From the IMG/VR virus record IMGVR_UViG_3300026519_000474, positions 1-31,895 of that record: DNA of 31,895 nucleotides; one strand, given 5' to 3'. The notes under the pieces are model-generated. The model searched no databases and was not told where the DNA came from. It saw only the letters and a program-made list of their open reading frames with translations. Position 1 is the stretch's first letter. The number at the start of each line of letters is the position of its first letter. Both the position numbers and the translations under genes were made by a program. This document shows, one piece after another, positions 3,816-31,895 of the stretch. Source of the DNA: a virus.

Positions 3816-4427
3816 ATGCGCAAGGAGATTGGCGAAAACCTCAGGCGACTGCGAAAACAGGCCGGCATTTCCGCCGCCGCGCTGGCGGAGGCTGTCGGCA
3901 CATCGGATCAGCAGATTTATCACCTGGAGCATGGCCGCCGGACGTTGACGCGCGATTGGGCGGAGAGGCTGGCTCCACACCTGCGCGCATCGCCGGTAGA
4001 GCTGTTGTTCCCAGAGCTGCAAAAACCGCCGGCAGTAAGCATTCCCATTTTCGGCTACGCCGGTGCGCGCGAGGCGGTGGACGTGCTGGAGGATGGTCAG
4101 CACACGGCCATCGACCATCTGCAATTGCCGTCGGTGGCGGACGGCTATGCCGCCGTCATCGTGCGCGGCGAATCCATGCGCCCGGTCTACAATCCCGGCG
4201 ACATCCTGCTGTTCCGCCCGCCCAGCGTCCGCCCCTGGCCGCTGGAGCAGGTGCTGGGGCGCGACTGCGTGGTGGTAACCGAGCAGGGCCGTGCTTACGT
4301 CAAACGCCTGCGCCGTGGCCGCGAGGCCGGCGTCGTCGATCTCATCAGCTACAATCCGGCGGTGGAGCCGATCTATGACGTGCGCCTGCGCTGGGCGGCA
4401 CCGGTGGAATGGGTGCGCAGGGGCTGA
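3816..4427 (+). CDS. CI-like repressor with S24/LexA autoprotease domain
   Basis: A 203-residue prophage repressor. An XRE helix-turn-helix fills residues about 4-55 (ENLRRLRKQAGISAAALAEA, then GTSDQQIYHLEHGRR). The C-terminal S24 domain has the catalytic Ser at 120 (RGESMRPVYNPGD), Lys at 163 (RAYVKRLRR), and a plausible Ala-Gly cleavage bond at 82-83 (GYAGAR). RecA-stimulated self-cleavage, and hence SOS induction, follows from family knowledge. The ATG at 3816 starts directly at the HTH; the in-frame ATG at 3729 would run through the operator. Its GGAG is only 2 bases from the ATG, so initiation signals are poor, as for other CI genes. It ends 4 bp from the convergent membrane gene. Confidence 0.85.
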   Translation: MRKEIGENLRRLRKQAGISAAALAEAVGTSDQQIYHLEHGRRTLTRDWAERLAPHLRASPVELLFPELQKPPAVSIPIFGYAGAREAVDVLEDGQHTAIDHLQLPSVADGYAAVIVRGESMRPVYNPGDILLFRPPSVRPWPLEQVLGRDCVVVTEQGRAYVKRLRRGREAGVVDLISYNPAVEPIYDVRLRWAAPVEWVRRG

Positions 4428-5229: not shown

Positions 5230-5508
5230 TCACCCCCGCCGCTTGCATGGCCGCGAGCAGACGTTCTCGCACGGGATGCCGTCCTTGTCCCTGTCCAGCT
5301 TTGAAAGCCCGCATTTCAGGAAGTAGTAGCAAGCCTCCCGGCAGTTGCGCATCTGCTTGCAGTAGCGCTTCTTGCCGCACTGCTGCGTCAGCAGTGGGCG
5401 GCTGGCGCTCCAGCCAGGGGTGGCAGAAGAGAATGCCTTTTTCGCCGCCGCTGGCAGTGGCGTGGCGACAATGGCGACGATGGCCGCGGTCAGCAGAAGC
5501 CTTTTCAT
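5230..5508 (-). CDS. Secreted Excalibur-domain protein
   Basis: A 92-residue protein. Residues 1-22 are a signal peptide (MKRLLLTAAIVAIVATPLP, AAA cleavage region). The C-terminus contains LDRDKDGIPCENVC, the Excalibur calcium-binding motif (DxDxDGxxCE) usually found in extracellular proteins. Several more Cys (QQCGKKRYCKQMRNCREACY) suggest disulfides. The ATG at 5508 was chosen because the signal peptide starts there and AAGGGGGGATCC precedes it. It ends 3 bp before the membrane gene, so the two probably form one operon. Confidence 0.7.
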   Translation of the reverse strand: MKRLLLTAAIVAIVATPLPAAAKKAFSSATPGWSASRPLLTQQCGKKRYCKQMRNCREACYYFLKCGLSKLDRDKDGIPCENVCSRPCKRRG

Positions 5509-6394: not shown

Positions 6395-6579
6395 ATCCTT
6401 GGCCGCTTCTCATCGCCAGCATCATCGCCGGCCTACACTTTTGGGGGGAGGTCAACGCCAGAATGGCAGGTGAATACAGTCCATCGATGCAGCCATTCAC
6501 TACCACAGACTTCTGGCTGGGCCTCACCTTGCTGATGCTGGCGATCTATGCCGCCGCGGCGAATGGAGGTAGCAGATGA
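6391..6579 (+). CDS. Small membrane protein
   Basis: A 62-residue protein with an N-terminal hydrophobic segment (about residues 3-18) and a stronger C-terminal one (about 42-57, FWLGLTLLMLAIYAAAA). The start overlaps the DnaA-like stop (ATGA); the stop overlaps the next ATG. No family recognised. Its position between a DNA-binding protein and the excisionase gives no clear functional hint. Confidence 0.6.
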   Translation: MNPWPLLIASIIAGLHFWGEVNARMAGEYSPSMQPFTTTDFWLGLTLLMLAIYAAAANGGSR

Positions 6580-6989
6580 CCACCGCGGGTGCCACATCCA
6601 CGCAACTGCCGGCGTGGGCGGTGGAGCCGCTGACGCTGGAGCAGGCGGCGCGGGTGCTGGGGGTATCTCGCCGCACGCTGGTTGATTTCCTGCGCCGCCA
6701 CCCGCATTATGAGAGGCGGGGCCGGCGCAAATTGTTCTATCCGGAGCACATCGAGGCGCTGAGGGCGGCATGGCGGGAGGAGGCAGAGAGGCAGGCAGGC
6801 TCAAGCTCGTGCGCCGCGGGCGCATCTGGTATGCCGTCGGCAGCATTGCCGGGCGACGCGTTCGAAAGAGCCTTGGCACTGGCGACCGGCGCCGCGCCGT
6901 CGAGCTCGCCGCGCAGCTCGAGGCGCGGCTCTGGGAGGAGCGCATCTACGGCGATGCCGCCGTCCGCACCTTCGAGGAGGCGGCGGTGA
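6576..6989 (+). CDS. Excisionase-like HTH protein
   Basis: The first about 75 residues form a winged-helix/MerR-type domain (LTLEQAARVLGVSRRTLVDF, then the wing YERRGRRKLFYPEH) as in excisionases and helix_turn_helix_17 proteins. A GGAGGTAGCAG RBS supports the start. From codon 65 on, the frame overlaps the integrase gene for 220 bp and becomes Ser/Ala/Arg low complexity, so the functional part is probably the N-terminal domain only. As an excisionase it would bind attP arms and direct excision; the position directly before int supports this. Confidence 0.6.
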   Translation: MTTAGATSTQLPAWAVEPLTLEQAARVLGVSRRTLVDFLRRHPHYERRGRRKLFYPEHIEALRAAWREEAERQAGSSSCAAGASGMPSAALPGDAFERALALATGAAPSSSPRSSRRGSGRSASTAMPPSAPSRRRR

Positions 6990-7828
6990 GCTACCTGGAG
7001 GCCGGCGGTGAGGGCCGCTTCCTGCCGCCGCTGCTGCAGTATTTTCGCGGCAGGCCGCTGGCCGAGATACAGCCCGGCGATGTCATCAAGGCGGCCATCG
7101 AGCTGTATCCCACCGCCAGCGCCGCGACGCGCAATCGCCAGGTCATCACGCCGGCCCGCGCGGTCATCAATCATGCCGCCGAGCTGGGCTGGTGCGCACC
7201 CATCCGCGTCAAGCGATTCCGCGAGCGCAAACCACAGCGGGTGGCGGTGGATCGCCGCTGGATCGACCGCTTCATGGCCGCGGCGATGCAGCCGGGCGGG
7301 CGGCGGGTGCCGAAGCCGCACCTGGCGGCGCTGGCGCTGTTCATGTTCACGACCGGCGCGCGCATCAGCGAGGCGGTGGCGCTGACGTGGGATGATGTCG
7401 ACCTGCCCGCCCGCCGCGCCCGCATCACCATGAGCAAAACGGGCGGCGAGGTGCGCGAGGCGGTGCTGACGCAGGAGATGGTGGCGCTGCTGATGCGCCT
7501 GCCGCGCCAGCACGGCGGGCGGGTGTTCGGCTACGCCAGCCGCCATGCGGTCATGAGTGCCTGGCGCAGCACCTGCGCGGTGGCCGGCATCGAATACGTG
7601 CCGCCACACCAGGCGGGGCGGCACTCATTTGCCACCGCCCTCAATGCCGCTGGCATCGACCCGAAGACGGCGATGGAGGCCGGCGGCTGGAAATCCGCCC
7701 GTCTGTATCTGGAGCGCTATGTGCACGGCGATGACGCCGCCGACCGCATCGCCCAGGTATTCGAGCGCGACGCCGATGATACCCCTCAAACCGATAATGT
7801 CTTCCCGTTGTTGCGAGGAGAGGGGTAG
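6770..7828 (+). CDS. int: Tyrosine-recombinase integrase
   Basis: A 352-residue phage integrase. The N-terminal arm/core-binding part (residues about 10-160) begins LKLVRRGRIWYAVGS. The catalytic domain shows Arg198 (TTGARISEA), Lys223 (MSKTGG), H280/R284/H285 (PHQAGRHSFAT), Trp307 in the place of the usual second His, and the nucleophile Tyr317 (LERYVH). In the His box one residue separates this protein from the usual HxxR spacing. It recombines attP with the tRNA-Ser attB. The start ATG follows GAGGGCGGC. Unusually, a toxin-antitoxin pair separates it from the attachment core 1 kb downstream. Confidence 0.9.
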   Translation: MAGGGREAGRLKLVRRGRIWYAVGSIAGRRVRKSLGTGDRRRAVELAAQLEARLWEERIYGDAAVRTFEEAAVSYLEAGGEGRFLPPLLQYFRGRPLAEIQPGDVIKAAIELYPTASAATRNRQVITPARAVINHAAELGWCAPIRVKRFRERKPQRVAVDRRWIDRFMAAAMQPGGRRVPKPHLAALALFMFTTGARISEAVALTWDDVDLPARRARITMSKTGGEVREAVLTQEMVALLMRLPRQHGGRVFGYASRHAVMSAWRSTCAVAGIEYVPPHQAGRHSFATALNAAGIDPKTAMEAGGWKSARLYLERYVHGDDAADRIAQVFERDADDTPQTDNVFPLLRGEG

Positions 7829-7846
7829 GAGATGACTTAGGGGGCA

Positions 7847-7878
7847 TGTTGCTCTATAAATGAGCATATGAGGCAACA
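7847..7878 (+). promoter_or_regulatory. Nested dyads and candidate promoter of the first Panacea module
   Basis: TGCTC-TATAAAT-GAGCA (7850-7866) brackets a TATAAA -10-like element with 5-bp inverted arms. An outer pair, TGTTGC (7847-7852) and GCAACA (7873-7878), encloses it. The arrangement suits autoregulation of a toxin-antitoxin operon. The RBS GGAG follows at about 7881. The -35 is not clear. Confidence 0.45.
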
Positions 7879-7892
7879 GTGGAGCATCTGCC

Positions 7893-8447
7893 ATGGCGCA
7901 GCGCAATGATGACCGTTTGGAGTATATGATACTGTTTTTTGCGGCAAAGGCTCCAGATGGCAAAACAAAGATGGCAAAATATCTGTGGGAAGCTGATGTG
8001 GAAGCGTTCCGCAGGTTTGGGCGCAGTCTATCTGGGCGAGATCTCTATCTGCGCTTAGAGCACGGCCCTGTGCCACAAAATTTTGATAAGGCCTTGGCCA
8101 AGCTGCGCGAGGAAGGGCTCCTTGCGCGAGAATTCCTTGACAAATATGGGTATCGTGAAGAGCGCCATCACCTTGCTGATGATGCAGCGGTAGATTTTTC
8201 TGTCTTCAGCCCAGAGGAGGTGGACGTCCTGCATACTGCCATCGTTCGGCTGCAGGATTTATCTGCCAGGCAGGCAAGTGAGCGCACTCATGATGCCTAT
8301 TGGGAGGAGCTGGCGCTTGGCGGGCGGATGTTTGTTTCAGCTGGCGCAGTGGTAGAGGGGGAGGTTACCGAAGAAGCTCTTGCATGGGCTGAATCTGTGC
8401 GCAAAGAGATCATAGAAGAAGAAGCTTCCTTGCAAGAAATCGAATGA
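7893..8447 (+). CDS. Panacea-domain (SocA/DUF4065-like) antitoxin, module 1
   Basis: A 184-residue protein. Residues about 10-90 match the Panacea/DUF4065 pattern: KTKMAKYLWEADVEAFRRFG, then LYLRLEHGPVPQNFDKAL and AKLREEGLLA. Panacea proteins are promiscuous antitoxins that directly neutralise diverse toxins encoded next to them. The C-terminal half (ending VTEEALAWAESVRKEIIEEE) is acidic and may add specificity. The gene is visibly richer in A/T than the integrase before it, a sign of separate acquisition. GGAG sits 8 bases before the ATG. It is followed after 8 bp by a small gene, the presumed toxin. Confidence 0.75.
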   Translation: MAQRNDDRLEYMILFFAAKAPDGKTKMAKYLWEADVEAFRRFGRSLSGRDLYLRLEHGPVPQNFDKALAKLREEGLLAREFLDKYGYREERHHLADDAAVDFSVFSPEEVDVLHTAIVRLQDLSARQASERTHDAYWEELALGGRMFVSAGAVVEGEVTEEALAWAESVRKEIIEEEASLQEIE

Positions 8448-8455
8448 GATAAAAA

Positions 8456-8773
8456 ATGCAGATTGCGAAACCAGCAGGGGGGTTCCATGTCCAATGCCGC
8501 CCACAAGCCAGTGATATGGCGGCACGCCTTTGCAATGGGAATCCTTCCCTTGAGGCCTATAAAGATGGCATAATAAAGCGTTTGCGTGAAGCGGGTCATA
8601 TGATGGGCAAGGCTTTAGACTGGCAAGAGCTTCCTGGGGCAAGGATTTTTATTGCAGATAATCCTCCAGGGTTGCCCGTTGGCGCGCAAATATGGATCAT
8701 CTATCGCACACTGGGAGATACACTCACGTTCCACCGCATACAGGTCAGCAATGGTCTTCAAGCAGTTAACTAA
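8456..8773 (+). CDS. Presumed toxin partner of Panacea module 1
   Basis: A 105-residue protein of no firmly recognised family. A helical first half (SLEAYKDGIIKRLREAGHMM) is followed by predicted strands (ARIFIADNPP, AQIWIIYRTLGDTLTFHRIQV). This helix-then-sheet order and the YR-D-R pattern loosely resemble RelE/ParE-type toxins; that is inference. It has no membrane segment, unlike the partner in module 2. The ATG has little Shine-Dalgarno and lies 8 bp after the antitoxin stop, consistent with coupling and lower toxin output. A/T-rich relative to phage genes. Confidence 0.55.
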   Translation: MQIAKPAGGFHVQCRPQASDMAARLCNGNPSLEAYKDGIIKRLREAGHMMGKALDWQELPGARIFIADNPPGLPVGAQIWIIYRTLGDTLTFHRIQVSNGLQAVN

Positions 8774-8850
8774 ATTGCCGCATCTACGACACAGCAAGTG
8801 GAAATACCGCTGCATCTATCTGACTTGTTTGGTGAAATTTTATTCCCATT

Positions 8851-8916
8851 CTCCCCTGCTAAGGGAGTAGGCGGGCAGACCCCGCCTCGAGGGTTCGAAT
8901 CCCTTCCTCTCCGCCA
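8851..8916 (+). other. attP: Attachment site: 3' part of tRNA-Ser(GCU)
   Basis: 66 bp that read as the 3' two-thirds of a serine tRNA: anticodon arm CTCCC-CTGCTAA-GGGAG (anticodon GCT), a long variable arm of 7 bp (AGGCGGG/CCCGCCT), a T arm with GGTTCGAATCC, the acceptor 3' strand CCTCTCC, discriminator G and CCA. The matching 5' strand (GGAGAGG) and a D arm are absent from the bases upstream, so it is not a functional tRNA. Phages that integrate into a tRNA gene carry exactly such a 3' fragment in attP to restore the gene. Its place 1 kb after int and before the lysis genes fits. The rest of 8774-9073 is noncoding and may hold integrase arm sites. Confidence 0.85.
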
Positions 8917-9017: not shown

Positions 9018-9054
9018 ATGTGGCACAGATTTGACACAGCGGGATTCGCCACAT
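9018..9054. repeat. Inverted repeat with two GACACAG/GGCACAG boxes beside attP
   Basis: ATGTGGC (9018-9024) and GCCACAT (9048-9054) are exact inverted arms. Between and overlapping them are GGCACAG (from 9022) and GACACAG (from 9033), 11 bp apart. Lying about 100 bp from the attachment core, they are candidate arm-type sites for integrase or excisionase. Confidence 0.4.
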
Positions 9055-9073: not shown

Positions 9074-9505
9074 TCAGCGCCGGCGCAGCACCTTCTCCAG
9101 CGTCCGCCCGCCGATGTAGCCACCTATGGCGATGTTGACGCTGGTCATGATCCAGCCCAGCAGGGTGTCGCCGATGCGCACCGGCGGCATGCCCAGCCAG
9201 TCCACGGCGATAGGCAGGAGGAGGGCGTAGAAAATCATCACGAAGGCGAAGGAAAGGGCGACGATGGGGCGCCAAAGGCGCTGCAGCGCGCTCTCGCCGC
9301 GCAGCTCGGCAATGAGCACATCGCGGCGGGCCTGCAGCTCGGTGGTGGCCACCGCCTCGATGGAGCGGGTGATGGCCTGCTCCAGCTCTGCTCGCAGCTC
9401 CGCCTCGCTCAGCTTGCGCTGCTGCGCCCGCTCGATGACGGCCAGCACCTCGCGCACGATGGGGCCACCCAGCAGGCTGGCCAGCAGCTTGCCGATGCCG
9501 ATCAT
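9074..9505 (-). CDS. Holin, 3TM/GTA type
   Basis: A 143-residue protein with a helical, charged N-terminal part (SEAELRAELEQAITRSIEAV) and hydrophobic segments near the C-terminus (about 90-108 and 115-135), resembling the 3TM holin family PF11351 first noted in gene-transfer agents. Such proteins permeabilise the inner membrane to release endolysin. ATG 9505 follows GGGAGGGAGTGCTGGG and overlaps the upstream stop. It is the last gene of the late operon before attP. Confidence 0.75.
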   Translation of the reverse strand: MIGIGKLLASLLGGPIVREVLAVIERAQQRKLSEAELRAELEQAITRSIEAVATTELQARRDVLIAELRGESALQRLWRPIVALSFAFVMIFYALLLPIAVDWLGMPPVRIGDTLLGWIMTSVNIAIGGYIGGRTLEKVLRRR

Positions 9506-10157: not shown

Positions 10158-11024
10158 TCAGCCTCCGATGATCTGCTGCAGCCAATGCCAGGCCTGCTGC
10201 AGCCATCCTGCGATGCTGGCGCCAGCCGCCGCGAGAGCGGTCAGCGCGGCAATGAAAAGCCCCACCACGCCAGGGCGGCGGGTGGGGCTGGAGGCAGCAG
10301 CCGGTGGGGGTGGCGCTGCCGGCCCGGGGATGCTCTCCCCGGGGTGGTCTGCAGGAGGGGGCGGGGGAGAGGCAGCAGCAGGCGGCGCGGGTGGTGCTTC
10401 CGCTGCCACTTGCACTTCCGGCCACGGTCGCTTGCGCCAGCGCTCGTAGGCGCTGCGGAGCTTCACATCATAGCGATTCTTCTTGTAGGCGCGGCCATTG
10501 TAGGCGCGCGCGAAGCGCGCCCACTGCCGCCGGCGCAGCGCCTCGATCATGCTCTTGCTGGCCGCCAGGAAGCGCCCCAGCGCCTCCAGCTGCTGGCGCT
10601 CTCCGCGCTGGAAATCCTCCACCATCGCGCGGGCGCTGGGATAGCCCGCGCGCCGGTGATTGAAGCCCATGATCTGCGGCAGGCCGTAGCTGGCGAAATT
10701 GTAGGCCAGGTCGCCGACGATTGCGCGGGCGCGCTCCAGCTGCCGCCAGCGCTCGGCATTGCTGCGCGGATATTTGCGCTCTCCCCAACGTCGATAGGCC
10801 AGACCATCCAGGATCAATCTGCGGAGCTTCGCCGGCGCGCGGACGCGGGTAAGACGATGCGCGATGTGCGGCTCGTAAAGGATGCGGACGCGCCCGGCGC
10901 GGTCGAAGCCGCGGCGGCGCGGCCAGCCGCACTCCACCTCCAGCACCGCCGCCAGCGCCGCCGGCTCCACGCCGATATGGGCGGCCACCTCGGCGATGTC
11001 CTCGCGGGTGATCCTGTCGGTCAT
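10158..11024 (-). CDS. Endolysin: N-acetylmuramidase (DUF3380/PF11860) with C-terminal membrane anchor
   Basis: A 288-residue peptidoglycan-cleaving enzyme. Family signatures: Glu31 in VLEVECGW (presumed catalytic), ILYEPH (48-53) and SYGLPQIMGFNH (112-123). Unlike the usual soluble enzyme, a Pro/Ala linker (about 205-245) leads to a hydrophobic and amphipathic C-terminus (about 252-288, GLFIAALTALAAAG). That tail could tether the enzyme to the membrane or act in its export. The ATG at 11024 overlaps the upstream stop; no N-terminal signal is present, so release should depend on the holins. Confidence 0.8.
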   Translation of the reverse strand: MTDRITREDIAEVAAHIGVEPAALAAVLEVECGWPRRRGFDRAGRVRILYEPHIAHRLTRVRAPAKLRRLILDGLAYRRWGERKYPRSNAERWRQLERARAIVGDLAYNFASYGLPQIMGFNHRRAGYPSARAMVEDFQRGERQQLEALGRFLAASKSMIEALRRRQWARFARAYNGRAYKKNRYDVKLRSAYERWRKRPWPEVQVAAEAPPAPPAAASPPPPPADHPGESIPGPAAPPPPAAASSPTRRPGVVGLFIAALTALAAAGASIAGWLQQAWHWLQQIIGG

Positions 11025-11745: not shown

Positions 11746-12195
11746 TCACCTCCGTCTGTTGCGCCTGGCCAGGCGGGTGGGGCGGCGGCAATACCAGCTC
11801 CACGTGCGCGCCGGGCCGACATCCACGTGCACGAATGACCTGCCGCAGTAGAAACCGCGCCCACCGCCCACATGCCGCGCCCACCAGCGCAGTATCCAGC
11901 GCTTGCTGACGCCGGGGATGATGATGTCCGCCGCACGGCAGCCGGCGGCGATGCGGTGATAGCTGCGCGGCGCGCGGCGATTGCCATGCAGGCGGCAGCC
12001 CCCGTGCGGGGTGATGGTGATGTGCCTGCCGGTGGCGCGGTGCAGCGCCCGCAGATTGGCCAGCAGGCGCGGGTGCAGCCCGCGCACCGGCCCGCTGATC
12101 CAGCCATCCGCCGCCGATGCCGGGGGCTGGCCGGTGGACATGAAAAAGGCCGCCACGAGGGCGGCCAGCAGCATGAGCAGGCGAAATTGCATCAT
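11746..12195 (-). CDS. Secreted M15-like (VanY/DUF882-type) peptidase
   Basis: A 149-residue protein with a signal peptide (about residues 1-29, ending ASAA) and the zinc-site pattern of M15 peptidases: His80 (RSYHRIAAG), Asp90 (AADIII) and H123/D125 (FVHVDVGPAR). These enzymes trim D-Ala-containing peptides of peptidoglycan in the periplasm. The ATG at 12195 was chosen because the signal peptide starts there and it overlaps the SNase stop. With its own signal it can act before lysis. Confidence 0.7.
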   Translation of the reverse strand: MMQFRLLMLLAALVAAFFMSTGQPPASAADGWISGPVRGLHPRLLANLRALHRATGRHITITPHGGCRLHGNRRAPRSYHRIAAGCRAADIIIPGVSKRWILRWWARHVGGGRGFYCGRSFVHVDVGPARTWSWYCRRPTRLARRNRRR

Positions 12196-12683
12196 CTCAG
12201 CCTGTCCTCCTTGCCGATGGAGCGCGGTGGCGGGCACCAGCCCTTGCGGTGGCCGCCGTCATAGCCGCGGCCCAGCCCGCGGCGGATGAGCAGGCGGGAG
12301 AGGTCATACCAGCGGCCATGCCGGCGCACCCGCACGGTGGCGATGATGCGCCCGGCGTATTTGCCCAGCCGCACGTCCTGCAGCCGCACGCGCGTGCCGG
12401 GCGGCAGCAGGCTGCGCACATGGCGCGTGGCCCGCTCCGCCGCCGCCCGCTCCATCTCGCAGCGAGCACGGAATCCCTTCTCCGGCGTGTCCACGCCGCG
12501 CAGGCGCACGCTGGCCAGCACCGTGAGCGTCGGCCAGATTTTCACCCGCGCGCGGAAGGTGTCGGCATCCAGCACCCGCACCACCTCCGCCGTGTATGGG
12601 CCGGGATAGTCCGCCGGCTGGGCTGCCGCTGTGCTGCTCAGCATCAGCAGCACCAGCAGTGCTGATTCCACCTGCTTCATCAT
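12192..12683 (-). CDS. Secreted staphylococcal nuclease-like (SNase) protein
   Basis: A 163-residue protein with a signal peptide (about residues 1-21) and an SNase OB-fold: VLDADTF (metal-ligand Asp39/41), RLRGVDTPE (catalytic Arg62 and Glu68) and KYAGRIIATV (Arg112). All the expected catalytic residues are visible. It should cleave DNA or RNA outside the cytoplasm. A secreted nuclease inside a lysis operon is uncommon; degrading released host DNA or affecting competing phage DNA are guesses. It overlaps gpD by four bases. Confidence 0.75.
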   Translation of the reverse strand: MMKQVESALLVLLMLSSTAAAQPADYPGPYTAEVVRVLDADTFRARVKIWPTLTVLASVRLRGVDTPEKGFRARCEMERAAAERATRHVRSLLPPGTRVRLQDVRLGKYAGRIIATVRVRRHGRWYDLSRLLIRRGLGRGYDGGHRKGWCPPPRSIGKEDRLR

Positions 12684-17343: not shown

Positions 17344-18105
17344 TCACACCGCCAAGCTGCGTTGCGTGGTCTCTATCAGGATTTCGTCCGGCACCCTCTC
17401 GCGCAGGTATTCAAGCCCCTTCGGCGTTACGTAGGTGCGGGGTCGCGCCTTGTCGTCCACGATGGTGCTCTTCACCTCGAAGATGCCCATCTGGATGTAA
17501 CGCACCCGCGCCACGAGGTTGCCGCCCTGGTAGAAGAGGTATTTCGACTTCAGCCACTGGATGAACTTGTTCGGCTTCGCGCCGATGGCCCGCGCCGCGT
17601 TCTGCAGGCCATACAGCCCGTCGGCGTTCAGGAACTGCTCGTAGAAGCTCACCTTGGGTGCGTCTTCCTCGATCTTCGCCTCCAGCTTCAGCACCCGCTC
17701 GGTGTAGTTCAGCAGCAGGCCGCGCAGCGCGGCAGGGTCATCCAGCGCTGGCGGCTGGTTCTGCATCTGGCGCAGCCGCCGTTCGCATTCGATGAAATAT
17801 TTCCGCGCCTGCCGGCCCCGCTCGTTGCGCTCCACCATGGCCAGCTCCTTGGCCATGTCCAGCGTGATGTAGTATTCCTTGGCAGGGCGGCCACCCTTGG
17901 GGTTTTTCCCAATTTCGGGAAAAACCTCTTGGAGCACTACGAAGTCATGCCCCTCAACAAACCCATAAGCTTCGATGCGCTCCTTGATCCAGTCGGCAAA
18001 CTTTTTCCCGACCTGCAGAAACGCATGCAGCTCGCGGGCATTCACCGTCTCCACCGGATCGCCACCGAAGTCCACCTGGTGCAGTGCAATCAGCTCTTTC
18101 ATCAT
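17344..18105 (-). CDS. Phage antirepressor, AntA + KilAC domains
   Basis: A 253-residue protein. Residues about 18-110 form an AntA/AntB domain (VNARELHAFLQVGKKFADWI, YITLDMAKELAMVERNERG, ARKYFIECERRL). Residues about 145-245 are the KilAC/ANT domain (FLNADGLYGLQNAARAIGAK, YVTPKGLEYLRERV). Such antirepressors inactivate phage repressors and favour induction. Normally they sit in early or immunity regions; here the gene is in the tail operon between the tape measure and E', beside an XRE regulator. The start 18105 follows GGGGGGCAGG; a second ATG follows immediately. Confidence 0.85.
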   Translation of the reverse strand: MMKELIALHQVDFGGDPVETVNARELHAFLQVGKKFADWIKERIEAYGFVEGHDFVVLQEVFPEIGKNPKGGRPAKEYYITLDMAKELAMVERNERGRQARKYFIECERRLRQMQNQPPALDDPAALRGLLLNYTERVLKLEAKIEEDAPKVSFYEQFLNADGLYGLQNAARAIGAKPNKFIQWLKSKYLFYQGGNLVARVRYIQMGIFEVKSTIVDDKARPRTYVTPKGLEYLRERVPDEILIETTQRSLAV

Positions 18106-18118
18106 CCTGCCCCCCTGT

Positions 18119-18379
18119 TCAAGCCTCGTCCTGCGCCTGCCGCAGCGCCTTCTTCGCCGCGGCGATGTCCATGAAGATGCGCTCCAGCAGCGGCGGGATC
18201 GCCGCGTAGCTGGCCTCCCGGTGCATGTCGTCGGCAGCGCACAGCACGCCACCGGCGCGGGCCAGCAGCAGGCAGTCCTCCAGCTTGTCCAGCGCCGTGG
18301 CGATGCGCTCTTGCGCCGCGCCAGGCCGCGGGGAAGGATTGTCGATCCTGTTCAGATGGGCTACTGATACATCAGCCAT
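18119..18379 (-). CDS. Small helical protein upstream of the antirepressor
   Basis: An 86-residue protein, helical and mildly acidic, with a central LDKLEDCLLLARAGGVLCAA segment and a C-terminal AAAKKALRQAQDEA. No family recognised. It shares an operon with the antirepressor (13 bp apart) and diverges from the XRE gene across an operator-like dyad, so it is probably under XRE control. GGAG lies 9 bases before the ATG. Confidence 0.55.
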   Translation of the reverse strand: MADVSVAHLNRIDNPSPRPGAAQERIATALDKLEDCLLLARAGGVLCAADDMHREASYAAIPPLLERIFMDIAAAKKALRQAQDEA

Positions 18380-18404
18380 AACCTGATACTCCGGTTATCG
18401 GGTT
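18380..18404. promoter_or_regulatory. Operator-like dyad between the antirepressor operon and the XRE gene
   Basis: AACCTGATA (18380-18388) and TATCGGGTT (18396-18404) match as inverted arms in 8 of 9 positions around a 7-bp centre. A 12-bp palindrome, CTGATACATCAG, lies just inside the minus-strand gene (18364-18375). The divergent XRE protein is the obvious candidate binder. Confidence 0.45.
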
Positions 18405-18412
18405 GGTGGTCA

Positions 18413-18453
18413 GGCCCAACGTTGGTGCTCCTACACCGCGTTGGGCCGCTTTT
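18413..18453 (+). terminator. Hairpin with T-run upstream of the XRE gene
   Basis: GGCCCAACG (18413-18421) and CGTTGGGCC (18439-18447) are exact inverted arms around 17 bases, followed by GCTTTT. It resembles a plus-strand terminator, but no plus-strand gene precedes it closely. It may block readthrough into the XRE promoter or be an operator. Confidence 0.35.
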
Positions 18454-18455
18454 CG

Positions 18456-18484
18456 TTGCTTCCAACGGTAAGATTTTCTATCAT
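18456..18484 (+). promoter_or_regulatory. Promoter of the XRE gene
   Basis: TTGCTT (18456-18461), a 17-bp spacer and TATCAT (18479-18484). The predicted start near 18491 lies after the ATG at 18483 and just before the ATG at 18498, so the second ATG is preferred, with a leader of about 7 bases. Confidence 0.5.
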
Positions 18485-18497
18485 GTCGTCAGATTTT

Positions 18498-18758
18498 ATG
18501 TCAATAAGAAATTTGAGGGCTGACGACGTGCTCACCCCTGCACAGTGTCGCGCGGGACGCGGCCTCATCGACATGCAGCAAACTGCTCTTGCCGATAAGG
18601 CAGGCGTTTCTCCCAAGCTCATCATTGATTTTGAGCGAGGCAAGAGAAATCCTCGGATGGAAAGCCTCCTCCGCCTGCGCGAAGCGCTGGAGGAAGCCGG
18701 TGTCGAGTTCATCCCTGCCGATGAGGCCGGCGGCCCCGGCGTGCGCCTGAAAAAATGA
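18498..18758 (+). CDS. XRE-family transcriptional regulator
   Basis: An 86-residue protein: LTPAQCRAGRGLIDMQQTAL (helices 1-2), ADKAGVSPKLIIDFERGKRN (recognition helix), then LREALEEAGVEFIPADE and a GGPGVRLKK end. This form is very common in Alphaproteobacteria as a small stand-alone regulator. The last 25 bp of coding sequence before the stop are repeated exactly 586 bp downstream, after the next gene. It probably controls the divergent antirepressor operon and perhaps the following WYL-like gene. Confidence 0.8.
   Translation: MSIRNLRADDVLTPAQCRAGRGLIDMQQTALADKAGVSPKLIIDFERGKRNPRMESLLRLREALEEAGVEFIPADEAGGPGVRLKK
18727..18751 (+). repeat. 25-bp direct repeat, copy 1 (3' end of the XRE gene)
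   Basis: Identical to 19313-19337. It encodes the GGPGVRLK end of the XRE protein here. Both copies are also preceded by ATGAGG a few bases upstream. The pair brackets the WYL-like gene. Confidence 0.85.
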
Positions 18759-18819
18759 GCCCTTTTGCCTTGCGCCCTTCATCCTCCCGTGGAATCCTTT
18801 CCCAAGGGAGGGGAGGCTC

Positions 18820-19305
18820 ATGGGCAAGACCATCACCATTGAATATGTAGATATCAACGGCAACCACACGCTGCGAGAGATCGAACCTCTCGAAATTTCC
18901 GACGGCGACATGCTCCACGCCTATTGTCATTTGCGTGGAGACTGGCGGCATTTCAGGATCCGCCGCATACAGAGCATCATCGACAGCGATGGCGTCATTC
19001 ACGACGATCCTTGGGAATTTTTCGGCATAGAGCCGGTTGATGACCTTTCTTTCCCATCTTCTGCTGCGCGCCCTGTCTTCTCATGGGAGAAGAAGCGCCC
19101 CACACAGCAAGCAACCTTCCACATTTCTCGAGACATTGACAGAAAACTTGAAGACGCTGACAAGAACCTTGCGATTGCAAGAGAGCTCTTGAAGGATTCA
19201 TCACCTGAAGATGATGCAATCTCGTTCAAGGCCATCCTGAAGGCAATCTTCCACTTGGCTGGTTTTGCCTACCTCGTCTATTTCATCATCAGGCATTTCT
19301 TATGA
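18820..19305 (+). CDS. WYL-like domain protein with C-terminal membrane segment
   Basis: A 161-residue protein. Residues about 1-65 resemble a WYL-type Sm-like fold (IEYVDINGNHTLREIEPLEI, AYCHLRGDWRHFRIRRIQSI). Linked to it is a charged helical segment (about 105-130), then a C-terminal membrane helix (about 144-160, GFAYLVYFIIRHFL) with no HTH. WYL domains usually sense nucleic-acid-type ligands and control regulators; a WYL-like sensor joined to a membrane helix is unusual and could be an effector or exclusion protein. A strong GGGAGGGGAGG RBS precedes the ATG. The gene lies within a segment flanked by 25-bp repeats, which argues for recent acquisition as a unit. Confidence 0.6.
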   Translation: MGKTITIEYVDINGNHTLREIEPLEISDGDMLHAYCHLRGDWRHFRIRRIQSIIDSDGVIHDDPWEFFGIEPVDDLSFPSSAARPVFSWEKKRPTQQATFHISRDIDRKLEDADKNLAIARELLKDSSPEDDAISFKAILKAIFHLAGFAYLVYFIIRHFL

Positions 19306-19370: not shown

Positions 19371-19724
19371 TCACTCATTCTTCATATTCGGAAGTTTGTC
19401 CAAAACCTTCTTGAGCAATCCTTTCAGAAGATCGACAGCAAGGTCAACGCCAAGGTGATTGGCCAAAAGGATAAGGGCCACGACCTCTAACAAAAATATG
19501 TATGTGGATGGCCATCCTATCCATTGGAAGGCCTGCATGTCCGCCATGATGGTCATGGCGAAAATCCAATAGAAGCGCTCCTCTTTTCGACCATCGCGCT
19601 CGCTCTCGAGCCTTTTTTCCAGCTCGGCCAAGTCTGCGGATTTCTTGCCATCATCATCAGGGCAAGAAAGAGGGGGGATTTCAAGCCCCTTGAGAACTGC
19701 CTGTTCCTCTTCCCCAGGCGGCAT
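19371..19724 (-). CDS. Two-TM toxin candidate of Panacea module 2
   Basis: A 117-residue protein with an acidic N-terminus, a charged helix (about 30-50, LAELEKRLESERDGRKEERF), two hydrophobic segments (about 52-68, FYWIFAMTIMADMQAF, and about 75-92, IFLLEVVALILLANHLGV), and an amphipathic Lys-rich C-terminus. Membrane-acting toxins are one class known to pair with Panacea antitoxins. The ATG at 19724 starts 4 bp after the antitoxin stop, with a weak AAGG Shine-Dalgarno; a longer frame upstream would lie wholly inside the antitoxin gene. A terminator follows at once. Confidence 0.65.
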   Translation of the reverse strand: MPPGEEEQAVLKGLEIPPLSCPDDDGKKSADLAELEKRLESERDGRKEERFYWIFAMTIMADMQAFQWIGWPSTYIFLLEVVALILLANHLGVDLAVDLLKGLLKKVLDKLPNMKNE

Positions 19725-19728
19725 GGCC

Positions 19729-20199
19729 TTATGCTTTCCCCTTCTCCGTGTTGCGCTCCGCGTTGCGCGCCTGCCACTCTTCCCGCATGTCTTCCGTGGT
19801 GATCTTGATGCCATGCGCACCGGGAACATAGCGCTTGTGCCACGCCCCCTTGCACCAGTGCGTGTTCTGCACCAGCTCCCCAGGCGACTTGTCTTTCAGG
19901 ACCTGCCACACCTTGCGCAGCATGTCGGCTTCGGGGCTGTCCTCATCCAGGTCGTCCGCAAACAGGAAGGCCGCCTCCGTGATCGGCTTGCTGCCCCGGT
20001 ATTTGCACATGTGGTAGACGGAAGGCAGCACGGGGCCATAATCCCATGCTTCGAAGTCCTCACTCACCAAGCGCTCGCCCTTTGTGCCTGTATAGGCCAT
20101 GTCGGCCAGATACAGCAGCTTCTGTAGCTTCAGGTTCGAGAGCGTATAGCCACTCAATTTCGCCAGATATTTGGCAGCGGCATCAGGCTTGATGGTCAT
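19729..20199 (-). CDS. Panacea-domain (SocA/GepA-like) antitoxin, module 2
   Basis: A 156-residue protein with the Panacea/DUF4065 pattern: LSNLKLQKLLYLADMAYTGT, then VSEDFEAWDYGPVLPSVYHM and KYRGSKPITEAAF. The C-terminal part (WCKGAWHKRYVPGAHGIKIT) is also typical of this family. It belongs to the GepA-like branch and differs clearly from the module 1 antitoxin. GGAGGAGATCGCC gives a strong RBS, so antitoxin should exceed toxin. The upstream gap (20200-20294) is A/T-rich and has small dyads (CCCTTTGCAAGGG; AACATGGGTGTT) that may serve autoregulation. Confidence 0.8.
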   Translation of the reverse strand: MTIKPDAAAKYLAKLSGYTLSNLKLQKLLYLADMAYTGTKGERLVSEDFEAWDYGPVLPSVYHMCKYRGSKPITEAAFLFADDLDEDSPEADMLRKVWQVLKDKSPGELVQNTHWCKGAWHKRYVPGAHGIKITTEDMREEWQARNAERNTEKGKA

Positions 20200-31293: not shown

Positions 31294-31895
31294 TCAGTCA
31301 GCATTCAGCATGCCGGCGCGCCGCAGGACGCGCTCCCAGCTCTCCATGGCCGCTTCCTTGCGGCTGGGCGTGGCGGTGGCCAGCTCCAGGCCGAGACCGG
31401 CATCATCGGCCTGCGGCATCAACTCCACCTTGGCCTGCTGCCGCGGCGCGGCGGCAAGCACCTCGATGGCCTGCGCCGGCTCCATGTCGGTCGTCAGCGC
31501 CAGCTTGCGCGCCAGCGCCTCGCGGCCCTTTGCCTCGTCGGCGTCCAGGATGGCGGCAATGCGGGCGCGCTCGGCCTGCACCGCCTCGCGCACGTAGTCA
31601 TCCGCCGTAATCTCGCACGCCTTCATTTCCTTGCCCGCCGCAGGGGCAGGCGCTTCGGTCTGCTTCTTGTTCATGATCACGTCCTCCAATCTGCCGATGC
31701 GGTCGGCAAGGCCGACCTCGATGGCCTCCTGCCCCTCGTAAACGCGGGCCTCCATCGCCCGCATGGCGGCGGGCGAAAGAGAAGGCCGCCCGGCATGGAC
31801 GGCCTCGATGAACAGCTCCCAGGCGCGATCCACCGATCGCTGAATGTCCGCCCGCACATCATCGGGCAGTGGCTCATACGGATTGCCGTCCGCCT
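31294..31895 (-). CDS. C-like: S49-type capsid protease/scaffold, C-terminal part (cut by window edge)
   Basis: The frame is open to the right edge, so only the last about 200 residues are seen. Residues near the edge (PYEPLPDDVRADIQRSVDRA; MEARVYEGQEAIEVGLADRI) match the end of the S49 (SppA/lambda gpC) protease domain, where VGLADRIG is typical. After an Ala/Pro/Lys linker follows a helical, scaffold-like region (VREAVQAERARIAAILDADE). An internal ATG near 31675 (MNKKQTEAPAPAAGK) could give a separate scaffold, like lambda Nu3. The catalytic Ser/Lys region is outside the window. Confidence 0.85.
   Translation of the reverse strand, partial: ADGNPYEPLPDDVRADIQRSVDRAWELFIEAVHAGRPSLSPAAMRAMEARVYEGQEAIEVGLADRIGRLEDVIMNKKQTEAPAPAAGKEMKACEITADDYVREAVQAERARIAAILDADEAKGREALARKLALTTDMEPAQAIEVLAAAPRQQAKVELMPQADDAGLGLELATATPSRKEAAMESWERVLRRAGMLNAD

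Follow-up and report, generated by a model that had tools for sequence, protein, structure and literature searches.

A tRNA-Ser(GCU) fragment as the probable core of a complete attP in a metagenomic phage contig

What does a tRNA gene reduced to its 3' part do in the interior of a phage contig, and what does its position say about the form of the phage DNA that was sequenced? The fragment lies within a window that comprises a whole IMG/VR record, 31,895 bp long, classed as linear and without N. The virus is a temperate, contractile-tailed phage, and a megablast search among phage records found no close phage. We conclude, with a probability of roughly 0.9, that the fragment serves as core in a complete attP of a temperate alphaproteobacterial phage, with the DNA excised, replicating or packaged or, less likely, forming the junction of tandem prophages. 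The surroundings of the fragment are as follows:

3816-4427, + strand: S24-type repressor
6576-6989, + strand: candidate Xis, an HTH_17 (excisionase-type) open reading frame that runs into the beginning of int (Pfam HTH_17, 1.2e-5, just short of the cut-off)
6770-7828, + strand: tyrosine-recombinase integrase, 352 aa, apparently intact (Pfam Phage_integrase, 4e-21; phrog_1 integrase, 1e-43)
7893-8447, + strand: SocA/Panacea-domain protein (SocA_Panacea, 2e-11)
8456-8773, + strand: 105-aa partner of the SocA/Panacea-domain protein
8851-8916, + strand: probable attP core, the tRNA-Ser(GCU) 3' part, spanning anticodon stem to encoded GCCA (from sequence and alignment)
9074-9505, - strand: holin, the nearest lysis gene past attP (phrog_3427 holin, 6e-15)
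10158-11024, - strand: N-acetylmuramidase endolysin (Pfam Muramidase, 2e-46)

To the left of the fragment, the + strand carries genes for the repressor, a DnaA-C-domain protein, the candidate Xis, the integrase and the SocA/Panacea pair, and farther left the - strand carries early genes, including those for a GapR-like protein and a DNA methyltransferase. To the right, lysis, tail and head genes on the - strand follow directly after the P' arm in the order holin, muramidase, tail, tape measure, sheath, baseplate, major capsid protein E and head decoration, with a truncated head protease at the window's right end. This map agrees with the preliminary description of the locus, which placed the fragment between an integrase/TA module and the lysis genes, flanked by early genes to one side and by lysis, tail and head genes to the other. 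A small exported-looking Excalibur-domain protein is encoded amid the early genes (5230-5508), and small exported-looking M15-peptidase-like and SNase-like proteins are encoded near the lysis genes (11746-12683), the SNase-like one scoring just under the Pfam cut-off.

The 66 bases of the fragment hold an anticodon arm (CTCCC-CTGCTAA-GGGAG), a long variable arm (GGCGGG-CAGAC-CCCGCC; tRNA-Ser(GCU) variable arm sequence GGCGGGCAGACCCCGCC) and a T arm (GAGGG-TTCGAAT-CCCTT), followed by the 3' strand of the acceptor stem, CCA included. RNA folding of 8851-8916 yields three hairpins that correspond to the anticodon, variable and T arms; the folding energy is not unusual (z -0.9) and, because it is unremarkable alone, the identity of the tRNA depends on sequence. 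All 66 bases align with chromosomal tRNA-Ser(GCU) genes at 86-91% identity, with differences mainly in the variable arm. The alignment begins one base past the same G of ...GGCGCTCCCC in the chromosomal tRNA-Ser genes, and the G directly before the match in those genes is absent from the phage. ARAGORN found no complete tRNA in the window, and a scan of both strands found no second T-arm-like sequence of this kind there. With the arms present, the 5' part absent and no whole tRNA, the locus carries a tRNA-Ser(GCU) 3' fragment, as first described. An Rfam match to 'Plastid-psbl-rps4' on the - strand looks like antisense similarity to tRNA-Ser.

A host tRNA-Ser(GCU) gene sharing the same 66 bp, which the preliminary description suggested looking for, was not found as an exact copy, and the chromosomal genes aligned had 86-91% identity. 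A 47-base stretch of the tRNA, sought as an exact match in 84,980 genomes, had no counterpart, and a 42-base pattern sought in viral contigs matched only the window's own record. A search of 385 genomes from the class to which the Jannaschia genome described below belongs, with 3 mismatches or fewer permitted, was equally empty. Among ~400 genomes of that genome's family, the best gene had 91% identity and a variable arm 3 bases shorter. We infer that the host is probably an alphaproteobacterium, a relative of the Rhodobacteraceae.

Relatives of the integrase were taken from viral contigs and bacterial genomes. The window's integrase keeps the residues that are invariant across 11 relatives, and relatives in Alphaproteobacteria are 47-52% identical to it. 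The closest relatives are alphaproteobacterial, except for one record titled Bacillus subtilis. That record (L049, JAHREI010000013.1, strain SK6B4) holds an alphaproteobacterial-type integrase and a tRNA-Thr 3' fragment, and its label is likely the result of contamination or mislabelling. A tRNA 3' fragment lies directly after int in the best 10 genomic relatives and in nearly all relatives in named genomes, the tRNA types being Ser(GCU), Thr(GGU) and Arg(CCU). At one related locus (L002), a small open reading frame similar to the candidate xis also overlaps int.

Comparison across these relatives recovered arm sites for the integrase, which repeat finding around the core alone had missed. In relatives, a paired motif, approximately TTGGCACAnAnTTGGCACAG, lies within the 3' end of int, ~60 bp ahead of the core. 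The motif was first spotted by eye in relatives and in the window; a position weight matrix was then built from nine P-arm sites, all from loci outside the window, with the window's own sites and the P' sites of two prophages described below (L067 and L115) held out of training. The sites in the window are:

8775-8794, + strand: candidate P-arm site TTGCCGCATCTACGACACAG, with a degenerate left half (PSSM 11.3, rank 5 in the window)
9020-9039, + strand: predicted P'-arm integrase site GTGGCACAGATTTGACACAG (best match to the matrix in the whole window)

The P' site scores 24.3 bits, with 40 random first-order Markov controls reaching no more than 18.3, and is identical at 19/20 positions to the site behind the tRNA gene of a Paracoccus alkanivorans prophage. 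It lies 103 bp beyond the core, and the corresponding site in a Jannaschia prophage lies 102 bp beyond the complete tRNA. The P site is 59 bp from CCCTGCTAAG, a distance of 61 bp in the Jannaschia prophage. Arm sites thus flank the core on both sides, with P' strong and P weak but at the expected spacing. At two Thr-type loci (L048 and L050), the motif was not picked up where it was expected. Because P and P' are both present, the fragment is a complete attP rather than an attL or attR, as proposed when an intact attP was first noted in mid-genome between the integrase and lysis genes. The same evidence bears on the idea that the fragment is merely a decayed tRNA, or the remnant of a phage-encoded one, with no role in integration. 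Such an origin would explain the missing 5' half, but we consider it scarcely credible, given that the fragment resembles the 3' part of a tRNA along its whole length, holds a position relative to the integrase that matches close relatives, and is flanked by arm sites of the integrase family.

Integrated sister phages reveal the architecture expected of a lysogen. At one end, they have int, the tRNA 3' fragment and host DNA; at the other, the complete tRNA, the P' arm and late genes. In Jannaschia (NZ_CANLTR010000004), a 60-bp perfect repeat occurs beside int at ~97.1 kb and again at 139356-139415, where it forms the 3' part of a complete tRNA-Ser(GCT) 42 kb from the copy at int. Past this tRNA lies a gene for a YkuD L,D-transpeptidase, which we assign to the host, and inside the prophage toward this end is a tail-fibre gene (phrog_5616). 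In the P. alkanivorans prophage, the repeat is 48 bp long, its two copies are 42 kb apart, and the complete tRNA is tRNA-Arg(CCT). This layout, with int and late genes at opposite ends, fits the earlier statement that int and lysis genes lie apart in this way in a single prophage. By analogy, the integrase of the window's phage would recombine the 66-bp core with the matching sequence in a host tRNA-Ser(GCU) gene, and the phage copy would restore the 3' end upon integration, so that the tRNA would remain functional. We infer both that this phage recombines and where its exact crossover falls.

The ends of the window bear on how the genome continues. Comparison of the two ends found no terminal repeat or overlap between them. 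The record is therefore incomplete, and the overlapping ends that had been suggested as a check for circularity were not seen. The genome presumably closes into a circle. The right end shares sequence with two other contigs:

31769-31895: exact 127-bp end overlap, common to L081 and L107 (assembly graph break)

The window's last 127 bases are the first 127 of L107 (IMGVR_UViG_3300026519_000534) and match the end of L081 over exactly 127 identical bases. L081 is a strain variant, 94% identical, from the same metagenome, which holds two or more coexisting strains. The window's right end is thus an assembly break rather than a phage end, and the exact 127-bp sharing indicates assembly with k=127 and suggests that the window, too, derives from this metagenome. 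L107 runs on with the protease N-terminus, the portal and a gpA-type terminase, genes that are absent from the window, which places portal and terminase past the right end, where a circular map predicts them. As the two strains have the 127-bp end in common, L107 may belong to either or both. This continuation does not reach the window's left end, and no contig was found that joins that end or the far end of L107. In the related contig L103, a methyltransferase, a terminase and a portal gene follow one another on one strand, an order that fits the window's left end leading toward the terminase.

In which form, then, was this DNA present? A single prophage has int and lysis genes at opposite ends with host DNA beyond the att sites; in the window, phage genes flank the core on both sides, and the order int, P arm, core, P' arm, lysis genes is a permuted phage map. 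P and P', which a whole integrated prophage would hold apart, are joined in the contig, and the DNA is therefore not a single integrated prophage. Neither host genes nor an attL- or attR-flanked prophage end, named in the preliminary description as findings that would speak against its reading, was detected beside the fragment or elsewhere in the record, and L107 adds no host DNA. Of the options originally offered, an unintegrated or tandem phage map is upheld by the joined P, core and P' and the continuation in L107. The phage-plasmid option lacks positive support, since no Rep, ParA or ParB families were found among the proteins tested from the recovered part of the genome. The window could also be the inner junction of two tandem prophages at one tRNA-Ser gene, where recombination leaves an attP-like hybrid with identical local sequence. 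A locus in Paracoccus onubensis (L065/L111/L112) shows that such inner junctions can occur in chromosomes: its int is decayed, P, core and a weak P' are grouped around an inner tRNA-Arg 3' fragment, and 9 kb upstream stands a complete tRNA-Arg that has a P' site of its own. The locus is the remnant of tandem or successive integrations. Nevertheless, we regard tandem prophages as an unlikely source of the window: they call for a second copy, although a single excised one would do, and the record and L107 are without host DNA. Tandem lysogens are probably also rarer in metagenomes than free phage DNA.

The joined arms would mislead if the assembly had fused the int side of one prophage with the lysis side of another through the 66-bp core, a sequence that is repeated in any lysogen, in a metagenome that does contain more than one strain. 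Multi-k assemblers of the SPAdes type also reuse contigs from smaller k and can carry joins over. However, the k of 127 implied by the exact end overlaps is longer than the core, so that the join of P, core and P' should be backed by k-mers with both flanks and the core junction is probably real. The P' spacing agrees with that of true prophages, and the two sides together form a coherent phage map. We therefore consider a chimera very improbable and favor excised, replicating or packaged phage DNA with a complete attP.

Between int and attP, the window carries an insert of ~1 kb (7829-8850) with a GC content of 0.504, compared with 0.661 for the whole window. The int stop codon is 1063 bp from the T loop, compared with 31-46 bp in the relatives measured (L044 and L045 left out), where this cargo is absent. 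Judged by sequence, the pair at 7893-8773 is a candidate toxin-antitoxin module; antitoxins with a Panacea domain are described as neutralising many toxin types (PMC8832971). A second SocA/Panacea gene with a small neighbor, also a candidate toxin-antitoxin pair, occurs at 19371-20199 in the tail gene cluster, and both pairs are in low-GC patches. A second cargo region, 17344-19305, lies between the tape measure and the tail tube/sheath genes and holds an AntA/KilAC antirepressor and, on the opposite strand, a WYL-domain open reading frame, again at low GC. We propose, with rather more doubt than confidence, that this integrase clade holds on to one arm-site pair while switching cores among Ser, Thr and Arg tRNAs, and that this phage acquired its Panacea-type toxin-antitoxin cargo at the precise spot separating int from the P arm, which would set the pair beside the junction of the lysogen.

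From the order int, P, core, P' and lysis genes, a single metagenomic contig can thus be interpreted as phage DNA in excised form and not as prophage, a reading backed by the sister lysogens and the arm-site motif. The motif is usable on other alphaproteobacterial phages. The finding itself is a well-supported case of known, ordinary temperate-phage biology.

Among known systems, the Jannaschia sp. prophage (~97.1-139.4 kb; L047, L066, L067) is similar in its integrase (52% identical), tRNA-Ser(GCU) target, arm motif and P' spacing. It differs in being integrated, in lacking the cargo between int and core, and in the type of the recognised virion gene near its far end, the phrog_5616 tail fibre. 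The prophage of P. alkanivorans 4-2 (L044, L114, L115) likewise has a 52% identical integrase, the architecture of the Jannaschia-type prophage and the P' site matching at 19/20, but its target is tRNA-Arg(CCU). Rhizobium phage phiU integrates at a tRNA-Pro gene. Its integrase (AB004561) is 46.9% identical over 59% of the protein, and phiU differs in its tRNA target, with a comparison record of 2.9 kb only. The tRNA-gene islands and prophages catalogued by Islander (PMC4383910) share the tyrosine integrase and the arrangement of the ends, one bearing the regenerated tRNA and the other the displaced 3' fragment; those elements show attL and attR, whereas the window shows the unintegrated attP.
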